A model generated the notes under the pieces. That model was not told the DNA's origin. It was given only the letters and a program-made list of their open reading frames with translations, and made no database searches. From Polymorphum gilvum SL003B-26A1 (GTDB taxonomy: Bacteria; Pseudomonadota; Alphaproteobacteria; Rhizobiales; Stappiaceae), in assembly GCF_000192745.1 (NCBI RefSeq), contig NC_015259.1, positions 1,937,001 through 2,001,000 on the forward strand: 64,000 bases of DNA. The letters are read 5' to 3'. How positions within the stretch are numbered: the first letter of the stretch is position 1; every line of letters starts with the position of its first letter. Below are positions 7,609 through 19,913 of the stretch, one piece after another. Made by a program: the position numbers and the translations under genes.

Positions 7609-9894
7609 ATGAAGGTTCTGTGTCTGGGGGGCGGGCCGGCGGGGCTCTATTTCGCCATCTCGATGAAACTCCGCAACCCCGCCCACGAGGTCACGGTCCT
7701 GGAGCGCAACCGCGCCAACGACACCTTCGGCTGGGGCGTGGTGCTGTCCGACGACGCGCTGTCGCGCATGCAGAACAACGATCCGAAGTCGACCGACGCG
7801 ATCCGCTCTCATTTCGCTTACTGGGACGACATCGCCGTCGTCCACGACGGCCACCGCACCGTCTCCGGCGGCCACGGCTTTGCCGGCATCGGCCGCAGGC
7901 AGATGCTGATCCTGCTGCAGGAACGGGCGCGGGAACTCGGTGTCGACATGCGGTTCCAGACCGAGTTCCGGTCGGCGGAGGACTACCGAAGGGAGTACGA
8001 TCTCGTGGTTGCCTGCGACGGCATCAATTCGCTCGTGCGCAAGGAATACGAGGCCGTGTTCAGGCCGGACATCGACGTGCGCAAGTGCAAGTTCGTCTGG
8101 CTCGGCACGCACCAGAAGTTCGACGACGCCTTCACCTTCATCTTCGAGAAGACCGAGTACGGCTGGGTCTGGGCCCACGTCTACCAGTTCGACGCCGACA
8201 CGGCGACCTTCATCGTCGAGTGCCTGCCCGAGACCTGGGACCGCTGGGGCTTCGAGGCGATGTCGAAGGAGGAGACAGTCGAGACCTGCCGCAGGATCTT
8301 CGAGAAGCACCTGGGCGGCCACGAGCTCATGTCCAACGCCGCGCACCTGCGCGGATCGGCGGTGTGGATGCAGTTCCCGCGCGTGATCTGCGAGCGCTGG
8401 TACCACGAGAACGTGGTGCTGATGGGCGATGCGGCGGCGACCGGCCATTTCTCCATCGGCTCCGGTTCGCGCCTTGCCTTCGACAGCGCCATTGCGCTTG
8501 CCGACTACCTCCATTCCGAGCCGAGCATGGAGGCGGCGTTCCAGCGCTATCAGGACGAGCGGCGGCTGGATGTGTTGCGGCTGCAGTCGGCGGCGCGCAA
8601 CTCGCTGGAGTGGTTCGAGGAGGTCGAGCGCTATCTCGGCATGCCGCCCTACCAGTTCGCCTATTCGCTGCTGACCCGCTCGCAGCGCATTTCCCACGAG
8701 AACCTGCGCCTGCGCGATCCCGACTGGCTGAGCGCTGCCGAGGACTGGTTCCAGGACCAGGCCGGCGGTACGCCCGGACGGGCGCCGATGTTCGCGCCGT
8801 TCCGGCTGCGCGGCCTGCGGCTCAACAATCGCGTCGTGGTCTCGCCGATGGCGCAGTACAAGGCCAAGGACGGCTGCCCGACCGACTGGCATTTCGTCCA
8901 CTACGCGGAGCGCGCCAAGGGCGGGGCGGGGCTCGTCTACACGGAAATGACCTGCGTCTCGCCGGAGGGGCGGATCACGCCCGGGTGCCCCGGCCTCTAC
9001 GCACCGGAACACGAGGCGGCCTGGAAGCGCCTCACCGATTTCGTCCACGCCGAGACGGCGGCCAAGATCTGCTGCCAGATCGGCCATTCGGGCCGCAAGG
9101 GCTCGACCCAACTCGGCTGGGAGGAGATGGATGCGCCGCTTGTCGACGGCAACTGGCCGCTGCTGTCTGCCTCCGCCATCCCCTGGTCGGACCGCAACGC
9201 GGTGCCGAGGGCCATGGACCGGGCCGACATGGACCGCGTCCGCGACCAGTTCGTCGCCGCGACCGAGATGGCCGCACGGGCCGGCTTCGACATGGTCGAG
9301 CTTCATGCCGCGCACGGCTACCTGATCTCCAGCTTCATCTCGCCGACCTCCAACCGGCGCGAGGACGACTACGGCGGCTCGCTGGACAACCGCCTGCGCT
9401 ATCCGCTCGAGGTGTTTGGCGCCATGCGCGCCGTGTGGCCGCAGGACAAGCCGATGTCGGTGCGCATCTCGGCCAGCGACTGGGTCGACGAGGCCGGCGT
9501 GACGCCGGTTGAGGCGGTGGCGATTGCCAAGCGGTTTTCCGAGGCCGGGGCGGACATCATCGACGTCTCCGCCGGCCAGACCTCGACCGAGGCACGCCCG
9601 GTCTACGGTCGCATGTTCCAGACGCCGTTCTCCGACCGCATCCGCAACGAGGCGGGGATCGCTACCATGGCGGTCGGCAATATCTACGAGCCGGACCACG
9701 TCAACTCGATCCTGATGGCCGGGCGAGCGGATCTCGTCTGCCTCGCCCGCCCGCATCTCGCCGATCCCTACTGGACGCTGCATGCCGGCGTCGCGCTGGG
9801 CGACCGGGGAACGGCCTGGCCGCTGCCCTATCTGGCCGGCCGCGACCAGGCGCTGCGGCTCGCCGAACGTACGCAGGAGGCGATCCGGGCATGA
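7609..9894 (+). CDS. 2-Aminobenzoyl-CoA monooxygenase/reductase-type fusion (salicylyl-CoA 5-hydroxylase-like)
   Basis: A 761-residue, two-domain flavoenzyme. Residues 1 to about 385 form a class A FAD monooxygenase with the dinucleotide motif [10 protein letters not shown] at 7-16 and [16 protein letters not shown] near 270-287. Residues from about 394 form an old yellow enzyme-type FMN reductase ([21 protein letters not shown], then [20 protein letters not shown] near 565, YGGSLDNR). This fusion is known from Azoarcus evansii, where it monooxygenates and reduces 2-aminobenzoyl-CoA to 2-amino-5-oxocyclohex-1-enecarbonyl-CoA; related proteins are annotated salicylyl-CoA 5-hydroxylase. The aminobenzoate-CoA ligase in the same operon favours 2-aminobenzoyl-CoA. 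GGGAGG before ATG 7609 supports the start. It leads an operon whose next gene overlaps it by ATGA. Confidence 0.88.
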
Positions 9895-10643
9895 CGCGTT
9901 CCGCGATGCTCTCCGGCCGTCGCGTTCTGATCACCGGGGGCGGCACCGGCGTCGGCGCCGACCTCGTACGCGGCTTCGCGGACGCGGGCGCCGAGGTCGT
10001 CGCCGCCGGCCGTCGGACCGGACCGCTCGAGGCGGTCGCGGCGCGCCATGCCGGCGTACGCGCGCTGGCCGTCGACGTCACCGACGAGGCGAGCGTCGAG
10101 GCGCTGTTTGCCGCCGCAGGCCCGGTCGACATCGTCGTCGCCAACGCCGGCGCGGCCGACAGCGCACCGTTCGCGCGCACGACGCTCGAGCAGTGGAACG
10201 CCATGCTGTCGGTCAACCTGACCGGCGTGTTCCTGACCTTCCGTGCCGGCCTGCGCCAGATGACCGGCTGGGGCCGGCTGATCGCCGTCGCCTCGACCGC
10301 CGGGCTGAAGGGCTACGGCTATGTCGCGCCCTATGCGGCGGCCAAGCACGGCGTCGTCGGTCTGACCCGCTCGCTGGCACTGGAGGTGGCGCGCCGGGAC
10401 ATCACCGTCAACGCGCTCTGCCCGGGCTTTCTCGGCACGGAGATGACCCAGCGGTCGGTTGTCACCATCATGGACAAGACCGGCAAGAGCCCGGACGAGG
10501 CGATGGCGGCGCTGACGGCGACCAATCCTCAGGGACGGTTGATCCGGCCCGACGAGGTGACCGCGGCGGCCCTGTGGCTGTGCGGACCGGGATCGGAAGG
10601 CGTCAACGGCCAGGCCATTGCGATCGCGGGAGGCGAACTGTGA
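9891..10643 (+). CDS. Short-chain dehydrogenase/reductase (SDR)
   Basis: A 250-residue classical SDR with the NAD(P)-binding motif TGGGTGVG at residues 15-22, NAG at about 86, a serine in VASTAGLKG and the catalytic YAAAK. ATG 9891 overlaps the stop of the fused monooxygenase. In the aminobenzoyl-CoA pathway an oxidoreductase acting on the 5-oxo or derived 5-hydroxy group is needed before or after ring opening; this gene is the natural candidate, by context only. Homologues are often called 3-hydroxyacyl-CoA or 3-oxoacyl dehydrogenases, but sequence alone does not fix the substrate. Confidence 0.85.
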
Positions 10644-11080
10644 CCGATCCCCTGTCCAAGCGCCGGCTGAAGATGTGGATCCGCCTGCTCGGCGTGACCC
10701 GTCATGCCGAGGCGCATCTGCGCGAGTTCCTGCGCGTCAACCACGACACCACGCTGCCGCGCTTCGACGTCATGGCGGCGCTCTACCGGCGTCGCGAGCC
10801 GCTGACCATGTCGGAACTGTCGCGCCTGCTGCTGGTCTCCAACGGCAACGCCACCACGGTCGTCGACCGGCTGGAAAGGGACGGGCTGGTGCGCCGGGTG
10901 CCGTCCGAGACCGACCGGCGCACGGTTCACGTGTCGCTGACCGACGAGGGCCTGCGCCAGTTTGAGGGTCTGGCGGTCGACCACGAGCGCGAGGTCAACG
11001 CGCTTTTCTCCGGCCTGTCCGAAGCCGATCTCGACGCGATCACGGACATCCTGAAACGGATGAGGAAGGAAGCCCCATGA
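10640..11080 (+). CDS. MarR family transcriptional regulator of the catabolic operon
   Basis: A 146-residue winged helix-turn-helix protein. GTG 10640 overlaps the SDR stop and is preceded by GGGAGG, which fixes the start; the first residues read [12 protein letters not shown]. The core has [55 protein letters not shown], the standard MarR recognition helix and wing (written here only to locate it: residues 40-95). MarR repressors of aromatic-acid genes commonly bind aryl-CoA esters, so 2-aminobenzoyl-CoA is a reasonable effector guess. The matched AT-rich sites at 7531-7557 and 19911-19936 are candidate operators. Being inside the operon it would be autoregulated. Confidence 0.92.
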
Positions 11081-11889
11081 CCAAGCTCGCCGGCCTTGCG
11101 CCCGTGCATTTCCAGTGGCAGGTGCGCGAGCGCATCGCCGTCGTCCGGCTCGACCGGCCGGAGCGCAAGAACCCCCTGACCTTTGACAGCTACGCGGAGC
11201 TGCGCGACACCTTCCGCGCGCTCGCCTATGCCGACGACGTCGACGTCGTCGTGTTCGCGTCCAACGGCGGCAATTTCTGTTCCGGCGGCGACGTGCACGA
11301 CATCATCGGGCCGCTGGTCGGCATGGACATGAAGGGGCTGCTCGCCTTCACGCGCATGACCGGCGACCTGGTCAAGGCCATGATCGGCTGCGGCAAGCCG
11401 ATCGTTGCCGCCGTCGACGGCGTCTGCGTCGGCGCCGGCGCGATCATCGCCATGGCCAGCGACCTGCGCCTGGCGACGCCCGAGGCCAGGACCGCGTTCC
11501 TGTTTACCCGCGTCGGGCTCGCCGGCTGCGACATGGGCGCCTGCGCCATGCTGCCCAGGATCATCGGCCAGGGGCGGGCGGCCGAGTTGCTCTACACCGG
11601 GCGGGCCATGAGCGCCGAAGAGGGCGCGGCCTGGGGCTTCTTCAACGCTTTGCATCCGGCCGACGTGCTCGAGGACGAGGCGTTGAAGCTCGCCGCGCGG
11701 CTCGCCGCCGGGCCGACCTTCGCCCACGGCATCACCAAGACCCAGCTGAACCAGGAATGGAACATGGGCCTCGAGCAGGCGATCGAGGCGGAGGCGCAGG
11801 CGCAGGCGATCTGCATGCAGACCGAGGACTTCGCGCGCGCCTACCGCGCCTTCGTCGCGAAGGAAAAGCCGGTGTTCGAGGGCAACTGA
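11077..11889 (+). CDS. Enoyl-CoA hydratase/isomerase family protein, possible ring-opening hydrolase
   Basis: A 270-residue crotonase-fold enzyme, ATG overlapping the MarR stop. The oxyanion-hole segments are FCSGGDVHD (67-75) and [17 protein letters not shown] (115-131). In true hydratases two Glu residues act on the double bond; here the first place (after the phenylalanine of FTRVGLAG) is Arg145, while the second, Glu170 in RAAELL, is kept, and an Asp152 occurs in CDMGAC. Loss of the first Glu with an Asp a few residues later recalls MenB and the BadI ring-opening hydrolase rather than a plain hydratase. In this operon the substrate would be a 2-oxocyclohexane-type carboxyl-CoA. The crotonase assignment is certain; the hydrolase role is inference. 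Confidence 0.85.
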
Positions 11890-11890
11890 C

Positions 11891-13054
11891 ATGGCCGACC
11901 GCTCGTTCCTCGCCTGGCCGTTCTTCGACGACCGCCACCGCGCCCTTGCCGCGGAACTCGACGCCTGGTGCGCGGCCAACCTGCCGGTCGACCACACCGA
12001 CACCGATGCGGCCTGTCGCGATCTCGTCGCGCGCCTCGGCGCGGCCGGCTTCCTGCGCCATTCGGGGGCGGAGGAGGGCGAGCGGCTCGACGTGCGCAGC
12101 CTGTGCCTGATCCGCGAGACGCTGGCGCGTCACGACGGGCTCGCCGACTTCGCCTTCGCCATGCAGGGGCTCGGCATGGGCGCGGTCAGCCTGTTCGGCA
12201 CGCCGGAGCAGCGCGCCTGGCTGGCGCGCACCCGCACCGGCAGGGCGATCTCCGGCTTCGCGCTGACCGAACCGGGCTCCGGTTCCGACGTCGCCAACAT
12301 CGCGACGCAGGCGCGCCCGCGCACCGGCGGCGGCTGGGTGCTCTCCGGCGACAAGACCTACATCTCCAACGGCGGCATCGCCGACGTCTATGTCGTGTTC
12401 GCCCGCACCGGCGAGGCGCCCGGCGCCCGCGGCCTGTCGGCCTTCTTGCTGCCGGCCGACGCGCCGGGTCTCGCGGTCGTCGAGCGCATCGAGGTGATCG
12501 CGCCGCATCCGCTGGCGCATCTGCGCTTCGACGACATCGTGCTGTCCGACGGCGCGCTGATCGGCCGACACGGCGAGGGATTCAGGATCGCCATGTCGGT
12601 GCTCGACGTGTTCCGCGCCACCGTCGGCGCGGCGGCGCTCGGCTTCGCGCGCCGGGCGCTCGACGAGGCGCTGGCGCGGGTCGAAAGCCGCCGGCTGTTC
12701 GGCGCGCCTCTGTCCGACCTGCAGATGGTGCAGGGCCACATCGCCGACATGGCGCTCGCCGTCGATGCCTCGGCGCTGCTCGTCTACCGCGCCGCCTGGA
12801 CCAAGGACATGGGCGCCGAACGGGTCAGCCGCGAGGCGGCGATGGCCAAGCTCCACGCCACCGAGGCGGCGCAGACGGTGATCGACACCGCGCTGCAGCT
12901 GCACGGCGGCGACGGCGTGCGCAAGGGCTTCGCCGTCGAGAGCCTGTACCGCGAGATCCGCGCGCTGCGCATCTACGAGGGCGCCAGCGACGTGCAGAAG
13001 ATCGTCATCGCCCGGGCGACGATCGCCGGGGGCAAGCAGGGAGCGGGCGCATGA
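11891..13054 (+). CDS. Acyl-CoA dehydrogenase
   Basis: A 387-residue FAD acyl-CoA dehydrogenase. Recognisable signatures are [20 protein letters not shown] (flavin and acyl-CoA contact region, near residues 120-139), [13 protein letters not shown], and [11 protein letters not shown] followed by [11 protein letters not shown], where the Glu is at the position of the catalytic base in many family members. It begins one base after the crotonase stop and overlaps RidA by ATGA, so it is an internal operon member. It probably oxidises a cyclic or ring-opened CoA ester in aminobenzoyl-CoA breakdown; the exact substrate is unknown. Confidence 0.9.
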
Positions 13055-13467
13055 GCGGATCGCCGCACGAATTCCTCCATCCGAAATCCTGGAAGCCGGC
13101 GCGCGGCTATTCCAACGGCGTCGCCGCGCGCGGGCGCCTCTTGTTTCTCGGCGGGCTGATCGGCTGGAACGGCGAGCAGGAATTCGAGACCGACGACTTC
13201 GTCGGCCAGGTCGCCCAGACGCTCCGCAACATCGTCGCCGTGCTGGAGGAGGGCGGCGCGCGGCCGGAGCATCTGGTGCGCATGACCTGGTACGTCACCG
13301 ACAAGCAGGCCTATCTCGACAACCTCGCCGGGCTCGGCGCCGCCTACCGCGACATCCTGGGCAAGCACTATCCGGCCATGGCCCTGGTCCAGGTCGCGGC
13401 GCTGGTGGAGGACCGGGCGCTGGTCGAGATCGAGGCGACCGCCGTGGTTCCGGACACGGAAGACTGA
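13051..13467 (+). CDS. RidA family enamine/imine deaminase-like protein
   Basis: A 138-residue RidA/YjgF/RutC-fold protein, ATG overlapping the preceding stop. RidA proteins hydrolyse enamines or imines to carbonyls and ammonia, and 2-aminomuconate deaminases belong to the same superfamily. The fused monooxygenase of this operon should make an enamine (2-amino-5-oxocyclohex-1-enecarbonyl-CoA), so a dedicated RidA is chemically sensible as the ammonia-releasing step. Visible family marks are [43 protein letters not shown] (residues about 57-85) and a C-terminal [12 protein letters not shown]. It lacks the classical RidA Arg-Cys ending (e.g. IEIEAIA with RVPR-type neighbours), so its precise subgroup is uncertain. 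Confidence 0.85.
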
Positions 13468-13531: not shown

Positions 13532-15169
13532 ATGATGATCACACTGCCGCCGCTCGGGCCGAGCGCCCATGTCGACACCTTCACGCGTGACAACCTGCCG
13601 CCGTTCGCGCAGTGGCCGGCGATGCCGCTCGACGGCTTCGACTATCCCGACCATCTCAACGCCGCGGTCGAACTGACCGACCGCATGGTCGAGAAGGGTT
13701 TCGGCGACCATGTGGCGCTGATCGGCAACGGCCGCCAGCGGACCTACAAGGAACTGTCGGACTGGACCAACCGCATCGCCCACGCCCTGGTCGAGGACTA
13801 CGGCGTCAAGCCGGGCGAGCGCGTGCTGATTCGTTCCGCCAACAATCCGGCCATGGTCGCCTGCTGGCTGGCGGCGACCAAGGCCGGCGCCGTGGTGGTC
13901 AACACCATGCCGATGCTGCGCGCCGGCGAACTGTCCAAGATCGTCGACAAGGCCGAGATCGGCCTTGCCCTGTGCGACACGCGGCTGATGGACGAATTGG
14001 TCGCCTGCGCCAAGGGCTCGGCGTTCCTGAAGAAGGTGATCGGGTTCGACGGCACCGCCAATCACGACGCCGAACTCGACCGCATAGCGCTCGGCAAGCC
14101 GGTGCGCTTCGAGGCGGTCAGGACCGGGCGCGACGACGTCGCGCTGCTCGGCTTCACCAGCGGCACCACCGGCGTGCCCAAGGCGACGATGCATTTCCAC
14201 CGCGACATCCTGATCATCGCCGACGGCTATGCCAGGGAAGTGCTCGGGGTGACTCCCGACGACGTCTTCGTCGGCTCGCCGCCGCTCGCCTTCACCTTCG
14301 GCCTCGGCGGGCTCGCGGTGTTCCCGCTGCGCTTCGGCGCCGCCGCAGCGCTGCTGGAAAATGCCACGCCGCCCAATCTGATCGAGATCATCCAGAAGTA
14401 CCGCGCCACCATCTGCTTCACCGCACCAACCGCCTACCGGGTCATGCTGAAGGCGATGGACGAGGGCGCGGACCTGTCCAGCCTGCGCGCCGCCGTTTCG
14501 GCCGGCGAGACCCTTCCGGCGCCCGTCTACGAGGAGTGGATGGCCAGGACCGGCAAGCCGATGCTCGACGGCATCGGCGCCACGGAAATGCTGCACATCT
14601 TCATCACCAGCCGCTTCGGCGACAGCCAGCCCGCCTGCACGGGCCGACCGGTAGCCGGCTACGAGGCGCGCATCGTCGGCGACGATGGCGCCGAACTGCC
14701 GCGCGGCGAGGTCGGCCGGCTGGCCGTGCGCGGGCCGACCGGCTGCCGCTATCTCGCCGACGAACGGCAAGCGAACTACGTCCAGAATGGCTGGAACATC
14801 ACCGGCGACGCCTTCTGGCAGGACGAGGCGGGCTATTTCCATTTCGCCGCGCGCAACGACGACATGATCGTCTCGGCCGGCTACAACATCGCCGGACCGG
14901 ATGTGGAGGCCGCGCTGCTCGCCCATTCCGACGTGCTCGAATGCGCGGTGATCGGCGCGCCGGATGCCGACCGCGGCCAGATCGTCGAGGCGCATGTTGT
15001 GCTGGCGGCAGGCGTCGCGCCCGACGAGGCGACGGTCAGGCGGCTGCAGGACCACGTCAAGGCGGTGATCGCGCCCTACAAGTACCCGCGCCGGGTCGTC
15101 TTCACCGACGCCCTGCCGAAGACCCAGACCGGCAAGATCCAGCGGTTCCGCCTACGCGAGGAGGCGTAA
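13532..15169 (+). CDS. 2-Aminobenzoate-CoA ligase / benzoate-CoA ligase family
   Basis: A 545-residue AMP-forming acyl-CoA synthetase. The ATP-binding P-loop reads FTSGTTGVPKATMHFHRD (near 208-225), followed by the late TGDAFWQDEAGYFHFAARNDD hinge (about 425) and the catalytic lysine in PKTQTGKIQRF at the C terminus. N-terminal residues (DNLPPFAQWP) and the family length fit benzoate/2-aminobenzoate-CoA ligases. It would activate anthranilate to 2-aminobenzoyl-CoA for the fused monooxygenase. AGGGGAA before ATG 13532 is the ribosome-binding site. It lies 64 bp after RidA and closes the operon; it converges with the LysR gene 5 bp later. Specificity for anthranilate rather than benzoate rests on the neighbours. 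Confidence 0.85.
   Translation: MMITLPPLGPSAHVDTFTRDNLPPFAQWPAMPLDGFDYPDHLNAAVELTDRMVEKGFGDHVALIGNGRQRTYKELSDWTNRIAHALVEDYGVKPGERVLIRSANNPAMVACWLAATKAGAVVVNTMPMLRAGELSKIVDKAEIGLALCDTRLMDELVACAKGSAFLKKVIGFDGTANHDAELDRIALGKPVRFEAVRTGRDDVALLGFTSGTTGVPKATMHFHRDILIIADGYAREVLGVTPDDVFVGSPPLAFTFGLGGLAVFPLRFGAAAALLENATPPNLIEIIQKYRATICFTAPTAYRVMLKAMDEGADLSSLRAAVSAGETLPAPVYEEWMARTGKPMLDGIGATEMLHIFITSRFGDSQPACTGRPVAGYEARIVGDDGAELPRGEVGRLAVRGPTGCRYLADERQANYVQNGWNITGDAFWQDEAGYFHFAARNDDMIVSAGYNIAGPDVEAALLAHSDVLECAVIGAPDADRGQIVEAHVVLAAGVAPDEATVRRLQDHVKAVIAPYKYPRRVVFTDALPKTQTGKIQRFRLREEA

Positions 15170-18392: not shown

Positions 18393-19910
<1,518 letters not shown>

Positions 19911-19913
<3 letters not shown>

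Follow-up and report, generated by a model that had tools for sequence, protein, structure and literature searches.

A Rid-family protein with methionine in place of the carboxylate-binding arginine, linked to the 2-aminobenzoyl-CoA pathway: a candidate deaminase of a CoA-bound enamine

The Rid gene and its operon

A stretch of 64,000 nucleotides of the Polymorphum gilvum SL003B-26A1 genome (assembly GCF_000192745.1, contig NC_015259.1, positions 1,937,001 to 2,001,000 of the forward strand), in the following called the window, contains an operon in which a gene for a protein of the Rid superfamily stands between the genes for an acyl-CoA dehydrogenase and a presumed 2-aminobenzoate-coenzyme A (CoA) ligase and downstream of a fused gene of the 2-aminobenzoyl-CoA monooxygenase/reductase type, abbreviated ABMR (Table 1). 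The 2-aminobenzoyl-CoA pathway was worked out in Azoarcus evansii. Here, we consider the role of the Rid protein and the possibility that it deaminates the ABMR product.

The protein of the window matches the Rid/L-PSP family PF01042 with 74.4 bits (Pfam curated cut-off 27.3). Start and stop codons overlap at most gene joints of the operon, and the ATG of the Rid gene (13051-13053) and the TGA of the acyl-CoA dehydrogenase gene (13052-13054) share the sequence ATGA at 13051-13054. Together with the GGGAG at 13039-13043 this overlap makes it likely that translation of the Rid gene is coupled to that of the dehydrogenase gene, as an earlier note on this DNA had proposed from the sequence. The same note's description of a Rid-family gene in an operon with these neighbours was confirmed by the matches to PF01042, NF006101 and NF006107 and by the Rid fold of the predicted protein. 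The ligase scores 354.5 bits against TIGR02262, i.e., just under the cut-off of 375.25, and is 54% identical to the ligase adjoining ABMR on plasmid pAL1 of Arthrobacter sp. Rue61a.

Table 1. Genes, sequence elements and active-site codons of the operon (window coordinates)
Feature	Position	Strand	Basis
ABMR-type fused FAD (flavin adenine dinucleotide) monooxygenase/OYE (old yellow enzyme)-type reductase	7609..9894	+	NF006101 1291 bits (cut-off 1078); PF00724 and PF01494
Short-chain dehydrogenase/reductase (SDR) oxidoreductase; start overlaps ABMR stop (ATGA)	9891..10643	+	operon reading frames, family profile matches
MarR-type regulator; inferred GTG start overlaps SDR stop	10640..11080	+	reading frame; recurs beside ABMR; relatives annotated MarR
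Crotonase-family protein, candidate for ring opening or a hydratase step	11077..11889	+	NF006107 481 bits (cut-off 330)
Acyl-CoA dehydrogenase; stop overlaps Rid start (ATGA)	11891..13054	+	PF00441, PF02770
GGGAG, plausible ribosome-binding site of the Rid gene	13039..13043	+	read from sequence
Rid-family protein, 138 aa, Met for RidA Arg105; proposed enamine-thioester deaminase	13051..13467	+	PF01042, Met110 in 111/111, AlphaFold model
Tyr20 codon (RidA Tyr17 position); Tyr in 109/111, Phe in 2/111	13108..13110	+	alignments
Codon of Met110, carboxylate-binding Arg105 position of RidA	13378..13380	+	alignments, DNA
Codon of Glu126, equivalent of RidA Glu120; kept in every full-length relative	13426..13428	+	alignments
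Benzoate-CoA-ligase family enzyme, presumed 2-aminobenzoate-CoA ligase	13532..15169	+	best NCBIfam match TIGR02262; recurs next to ABMR

Proteins of the Rid superfamily are homotrimers with active sites located at the subunit interfaces. The structure prediction was made for the monomer, and the AlphaFold model of the window Rid (pLDDT 94.7, pTM 0.89) has the standard chorismate-mutase-like Rid fold, and about 50 Rid entries align with it over 107-132 residues at Z scores of 15.6-19.0. The closest structure is YabJ (Z 19.0, root-mean-square deviation (rmsd) 1.7, 125 residues), next to RutC (Z 18.9, rmsd 1.9, 124 residues) and the YjgF/RidA of E. coli (Z 17.9). By itself, this fold tells nothing of the activity.

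Co-occurrence of the Rid protein with ABMR

The distribution of the Rid type with methionine at the arginine position, described in the next section, follows that of ABMR. In a phylum sample of 398 genomes, full-length ABMR is present in 71 and the Met-type Rid in 69 genomes; all of the latter are also ABMR-positive, so that 69 of the 71 ABMR genomes have both and 327 genomes have neither. A class sample of 289 genomes gave 48 with both, five with ABMR only, eight with the Rid type only and 228 with neither. Fisher tests of this co-occurrence give minute values, but kinship among the genomes violates independence, and the association argument therefore rests on the repeated linkage in differing gene orders and on the retention of the Rid gene where it is unlinked. 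The two genes lie less than 15 kb apart in 61 of the 69 phylum-sample genomes (median 6.1 kb), on different contigs in five and further apart in three. A distance within 15 kb would be expected by chance in about 3% of cases (five Rid genes in 4.7 Mb), and chance linkage was rejected on this comparison. Of the 60 ABMR contigs that reach 8.7 kb or further downstream, 53 have the Rid gene on the piece examined, located after the dehydrogenase gene, after the ligase gene, upstream of ABMR or in inverted orientation. In G154, for example, it is unlinked from ABMR and is found with the crotonase, dehydrogenase and ligase genes at another place. The operon of the window also recurs in Paracoccus denitrificans PD1222, where the Rid protein is PDEN_RS25310.

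Two apparent exceptions did not hold. Sixteen ABMR regions of more than 18 kb with a crotonase gene, seemingly Rid-less within 8.7 kb, are a cut-off effect, the Rid gene mostly being located at 9-13 kb. Moreover, the idea that the Rid gene is missing where crotonase is absent near the ABMR homologue was dropped, as a whole-genome search found the Rid gene elsewhere in most of these genomes (e.g., G233, G203, G197, G044). The sole phylum-sample genomes with full-length ABMR and without the Met-type Rid are G560 and G608, whose ABMR regions (L140, L162) are also without crotonase and ligase genes; the ABMR of these two regions may perform a different reaction.

The linkage extends beyond the phylum. 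A Deinococcus plasmid carries this gene set too, its Rid being of the Met type, and in Arthrobacter and Rhodococcus, Rid proteins of about 30% identity, likewise with methionine at the site, adjoin ABMR and ligase genes. One of these actinobacterial cases is plasmid pAL1, on which the Rid gene lies beside the ligase and ABMR genes and the ligase was demonstrated to be an anthranilate-CoA ligase (PMC3534580). On haloarchaeal plasmids, a fused monooxygenase of 40-42% identity to the window ABMR adjoins a Rid gene. Three of these haloarchaeal loci (L271, L272, L273) hold genes for the fused monooxygenase, Rid, an acyl-CoA dehydrogenase, MaoC, an SDR and a luciferase-like monooxygenase (LLM)-type flavin oxidoreductase, one of them also a kynureninase gene, and from their gene content they look like a full anthranilate-CoA cluster.

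Genes for kynureninase or tryptophan 2,3-dioxygenase were found in several dozen ABMR neighbourhoods. Both enzymes serve to make anthranilate from tryptophan, and their linkage fits anthranilate as the substrate source. NF006101 is named 'bifunctional salicylyl-CoA 5-hydroxylase/oxidoreductase' in NCBIfam and RefSeq; the linked kynureninase, tryptophan dioxygenase and Rid genes and the pAL1 case favour an amino substrate over salicylyl-CoA, which suggests that most NF006101 members act on 2-aminobenzoyl-CoA. The Rid protein almost certainly belongs to the 2-aminobenzoyl-CoA pathway, and the genome census, the linkage across phyla and the linked kynureninase and tryptophan dioxygenase genes uphold the earlier note's claim that it is dedicated to this pathway. 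A published link of any Rid protein to 2-aminobenzoyl-CoA or anthranilate-CoA ligase was not found in a search of mainly freely accessible literature, so that prior work may exist.

A methionine at the arginine position

The arginine of RidA at position 105 (Arg107 in animals) binds the substrate carboxylate (PMC4433059, PMC8113886, PMC5619798). In alignments this position corresponds to Met110 of the window Rid. In the main group of ABMR-linked sequences, i.e., the window Rid and 110 relatives from ABMR neighbourhoods, the methionine occurs without exception (111 of 111), and it stays constant though the preceding residues vary (PAM, AAM, PVM, PCM, PPM). Because of this constancy among varying neighbours and because Glu126 and Tyr20 are kept, Met110 is a conserved feature and no sign of decay. 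In crystals of salmon RidA, Tyr21, Arg107 and Glu122 coordinate an acetate molecule that is interpreted as a stand-in for the substrate carboxylate (PMC7311433); the other two coordinating residues are retained in the window Rid as Tyr20 and Glu126. Furthermore, basic residues near the site are conserved in the ABMR-linked group (Arg100 and a Lys or Arg at position 105), and one may speculate that these could help to hold the CoA.

The protein scores 57.0 bits against the RidA-subfamily model TIGR00004 (cut-off 106.25) and 19.3 bits against the RutC model TIGR03610 (cut-off 169.1). It lacks the conserved Arg105 that characterises Rid1-Rid3 and shows the combination that characterises Rid4-Rid7, i.e., absence of Arg105 with retention of Glu120 (here Met110 and Glu126). 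In a tree of 81 Rid sequences and 139 columns, in which the deep order is uncertain, the proteobacterial and Deinococcus ABMR-linked Rids fall into one branch (90/95), which includes some Met-type relatives without ABMR, and this branch forms a clade with the actinobacterial and haloarchaeal ABMR-linked Rids (98/90). The clade stands apart from RidA, from RutC and from the four other Rids of the source genome. Judged from these comparisons, the window Rid appears to be a member of a distinct Rid subfamily, which may overlap with Rid5 or Rid6.

The name RidA, given to the protein in the earlier note, is thus wrong at the subfamily level, and the accompanying argument that RidA proteins hydrolyse enamines cannot be transferred as it was put, since the protein fails the RidA model and lacks the arginine. 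For the same reasons it is extremely improbable that the gene encodes a housekeeping RidA that guards pyridoxal-phosphate enzymes from 2-aminoacrylate and stands in the operon by chance. Membership in PF01042 would agree with such a role, which was rejected in view of the missing arginine, the subfamily score, the position outside the RidA branch, the distribution that tracks ABMR instead of being general and the presence of another Rid with the canonical PAR motif (L001) among the five Rid-domain genes of the source genome.

Canonical RidA (YjgF/UK114) has the fold and the active-site Tyr and Glu in common with the window Rid and differs in Arg105, in its separate branch and in its substrate class; about 10% of the RidA proteins have serine at the Arg105 position (PMC4433059). 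The Rid4-Rid7 proteins likewise lack Arg105 and keep the glutamate. Rid4 and Rid7 have tryptophan at the site and Rid5 and Rid6 are variable (PMC4433059), whereas the ABMR-linked main group is strictly Met and tied to one pathway.

Possible deamination of a CoA-bound enamine

The ABMR product was reported as 2-amino-5-oxocyclohex-1-ene-1-carbonyl-CoA (PMC4539516). Its enamine is located beta to the thioester carbonyl, and the compound is therefore the CoA counterpart of 3-aminoacrylate, which is deaminated by RutC and not by canonical RidA (PMC8113886). Anthranilate-grown cells of Arthrobacter Rue61a, and no others, contained a CoA ester of C7H8O4, with no sign of the enamine itself (PMC3534580); the ester might be cyclohexanedione-carboxyl-CoA, i.e., the deaminated product. 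In agreement with the earlier note, which knew of no assignment of the ammonia-releasing step, no paper assigning the deamination to any enzyme was found in the mainly freely accessible literature that was searched.

We propose that the Rid protein deaminates the ABMR product and estimate the probability of this at roughly two in three. The ligase would activate anthranilate to 2-aminobenzoyl-CoA and ABMR would convert it to the ring enamine. The Rid protein would bind the enamine or imine form of the ring at the trimer interface, a water molecule polarised by Glu126 would add to the imine carbon and ammonia would leave, so that the hydrolysis of the ring enamine via its imine form to ammonia and dioxocyclohexane-carboxyl-CoA would be accelerated. 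The SDR, the crotonase and the acyl-CoA dehydrogenase would afterwards open and oxidise the ring. The exact substrate is one that we infer, and the SDR-reduced form of this ring could serve as well.

Since the arginine is replaced, a deaminase role needs an added argument, which lies in the substrate being a thioester and not a carboxylate. As the substrate carries an uncharged thioester where other Rid substrates have the carboxylate, the arginine would be unneeded and the large hydrophobic methionine would fill its place, with Tyr and Glu being kept; it is from this fit that we infer the reason for the methionine. In more general terms, Arg105 would be the reader of the carboxylate and no part of the chemistry, and its exchange for methionine would retune a Rid subfamily from free acids to CoA esters, allowing the deamination of a CoA-thioester enamine without arginine. 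We regard this generalisation as slightly better than evenly balanced. The earlier note's assignment of the ammonia-releasing step to this protein stands as regards membership in the pathway, given the census and the linkage; its derivation from RidA falls with the absent Arg105, and the deaminase activity itself is probable.

Dedicated catabolic Rid deaminases are known in RutC (PMC8113886) and AmnE (PMC6742747). RutC of the pyrimidine rut operon likewise has the Rid fold, is dedicated to one catabolic operon and acts on a beta-enamino acid derivative, as proposed for the window Rid, in a reaction that also occurs in water. It differs in that it keeps and needs the arginine (R104A is inactive) and in that its substrate has a free carboxylate and is not a CoA thioester; the identity over the structural alignment is 22%. 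AmnE, the 2-aminomuconate deaminase (PDB 6IZH), likewise is a Rid protein devoted to one deamination step in the breakdown of an amino-aromatic compound. In contrast to what is proposed here, its substrate in the 2-aminophenol meta pathway is a free dicarboxylate present once the ring has been cleaved; it forms a homohexamer and is 19% identical over the structural alignment. It was also shown that Rid reactions run slowly without enzyme and that loss of RutC still allows growth (PMC8113886).

Several observations weigh against a deaminase with this substrate. Rid proteins without Arg105 have so far been without deaminase activity (PMC4433059, PMC8113886, PMC5619798) and exchange of the arginine for alanine abolishes the activity of RidA and RutC (PMC4433059, PMC8113886), so that according to the published Arg105 rule the window Rid should not be a deaminase; no assay of any Met-type Rid was found in the literature. 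Besides Met, the ABMR-adjacent Rids of haloarchaea show Leu or Val at the site. Moreover, some Met-type Rids of the same clade occur away from ABMR, with a benzoyl-CoA-reductase-like operon, genes of KorAB-type oxidoreductases or otherwise unrelated genes as neighbours, so that the methionine is not exclusive to this substrate. Finally, ABMR occurs without a detected Rid in seven genomes of the two samples (G560 and G608; G025, G064, G224, G226 and G231), and because of these the deamination is apparently possible without Rid or spontaneously, several of the seven assemblies being incomplete.

The main rival to the deaminase reading is an Arg-less, non-catalytic Rid. Such a protein would belong to the pathway and bind the CoA ester or another protein, or protect or chaperone an unstable intermediate, while deamination would be spontaneous or due to the crotonase. 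The replacement of Arg105 in every ABMR-linked member, the Arg-less Rid4-Rid7 members without measured deaminase activity (PMC4433059, PMC8113886) and the crotonase being a regular member of the cluster likewise speak for it. However, Tyr20 and Glu126 are kept and the methionine is strictly maintained in the main group, unlike what is expected of a dead site, and two Rid enzymes are already known to catalyse a step of a catabolic operon (PMC8113886, PMC6742747). We consider this explanation unlikely, at about one chance in five. Less probable still is an action of the Rid protein on some other CoA ester with an enamine or imine group, i.e., the ring reduced by the SDR, an open-chain amino-enoyl-CoA formed after cleavage, or the by-product 5-hydroxyanthraniloyl-CoA, in which case it would remove a side product and not carry the main flux. 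In its favour, the later pathway steps could run in another order, a role in preventing damage is common among Rid proteins, and hydroxyanthraniloyl-CoA is reported as a by-product of ABMR under NADH limitation that was seen in cells (PMC3534580). The compound is aromatic, however, and not an enamine in the sense of Rid enzymes, and the near-strict co-occurrence with ABMR suggests a step of the main path, though it is compatible with damage control.

The idea that the methionine is a signature of ABMR linkage alone was rejected, as Met-type relatives also stand beside BcrABCD-like and KorAB-like genes. Because some members of the clade do not occur with ABMR, the methionine is a mark of the clade, with ABMR as its main partner. 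Since one clade member adjoins a benzoyl-CoA-reductase-like operon, the substrates of the same clade may include several dearomatised rings of the amino- or enoyl-CoA type.

Taken together, an Arg-less Rid group is tightly linked in genomes to one pathway and has an obvious candidate substrate of known structure. Current rules would call a Met-type Rid inactive, yet such a protein probably is an enzyme specialised in a CoA-bound substrate. The missing arginine, overlooked in the earlier note, makes the deaminase reading both doubtful and interesting: if true, an enzyme would be assigned to a step of aerobic anthranilate degradation, and the arginine would be an exchangeable substrate-binding residue. 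Annotation is also at stake, as databases default to 'RidA family' or 'enamine/imine deaminase' for the Rid and to 'salicylyl-CoA 5-hydroxylase' for ABMR.

Some relatives and neighbouring genes may be added. At locus L277 (G125:C23:1000-20000), a Met-type Rid gene at 9157-9666 (-) is divergent from two HGD-D and two BcrAD/BadFG genes; these neighbours resemble a BcrABCD-like class I benzoyl-CoA reductase operon, and the Rid may have a part in an anaerobic step with aminobenzoyl-CoA or dienoyl-CoA. In several Alphaproteobacteria (L282, L286, L257), related Met-type Rid genes adjoin genes for ferredoxin oxidoreductases of the POR/KorAB type, and a rubrerythrin or an NADPH-ferredoxin-type oxidoreductase is also present at these loci. 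Genomes of family f160 of the same order (L251, L252, L253) carry a second relative with Ser for Met (PPST) that is not near ABMR and that adjoins an EamA transporter gene at the one locus looked at (L252). Another of the five Rid genes of the source genome (G000:C2:1924675-1925067, minus strand), located upstream of the window by about 12 kb, reads His-Ala-Arg at this position and is unrelated to the Met clade, and the kynureninase gene of this genome is located elsewhere (C2:3883776). Near the operon, the window carries a gene for a 3-hydroxyanthranilate 3,4-dioxygenase (NF009763, TIGR03037) at 19371-19913 (+), followed by a branched-chain-type ABC transporter; in Pannonibacter indicus (L029), too, this dioxygenase is encoded downstream of the operon.
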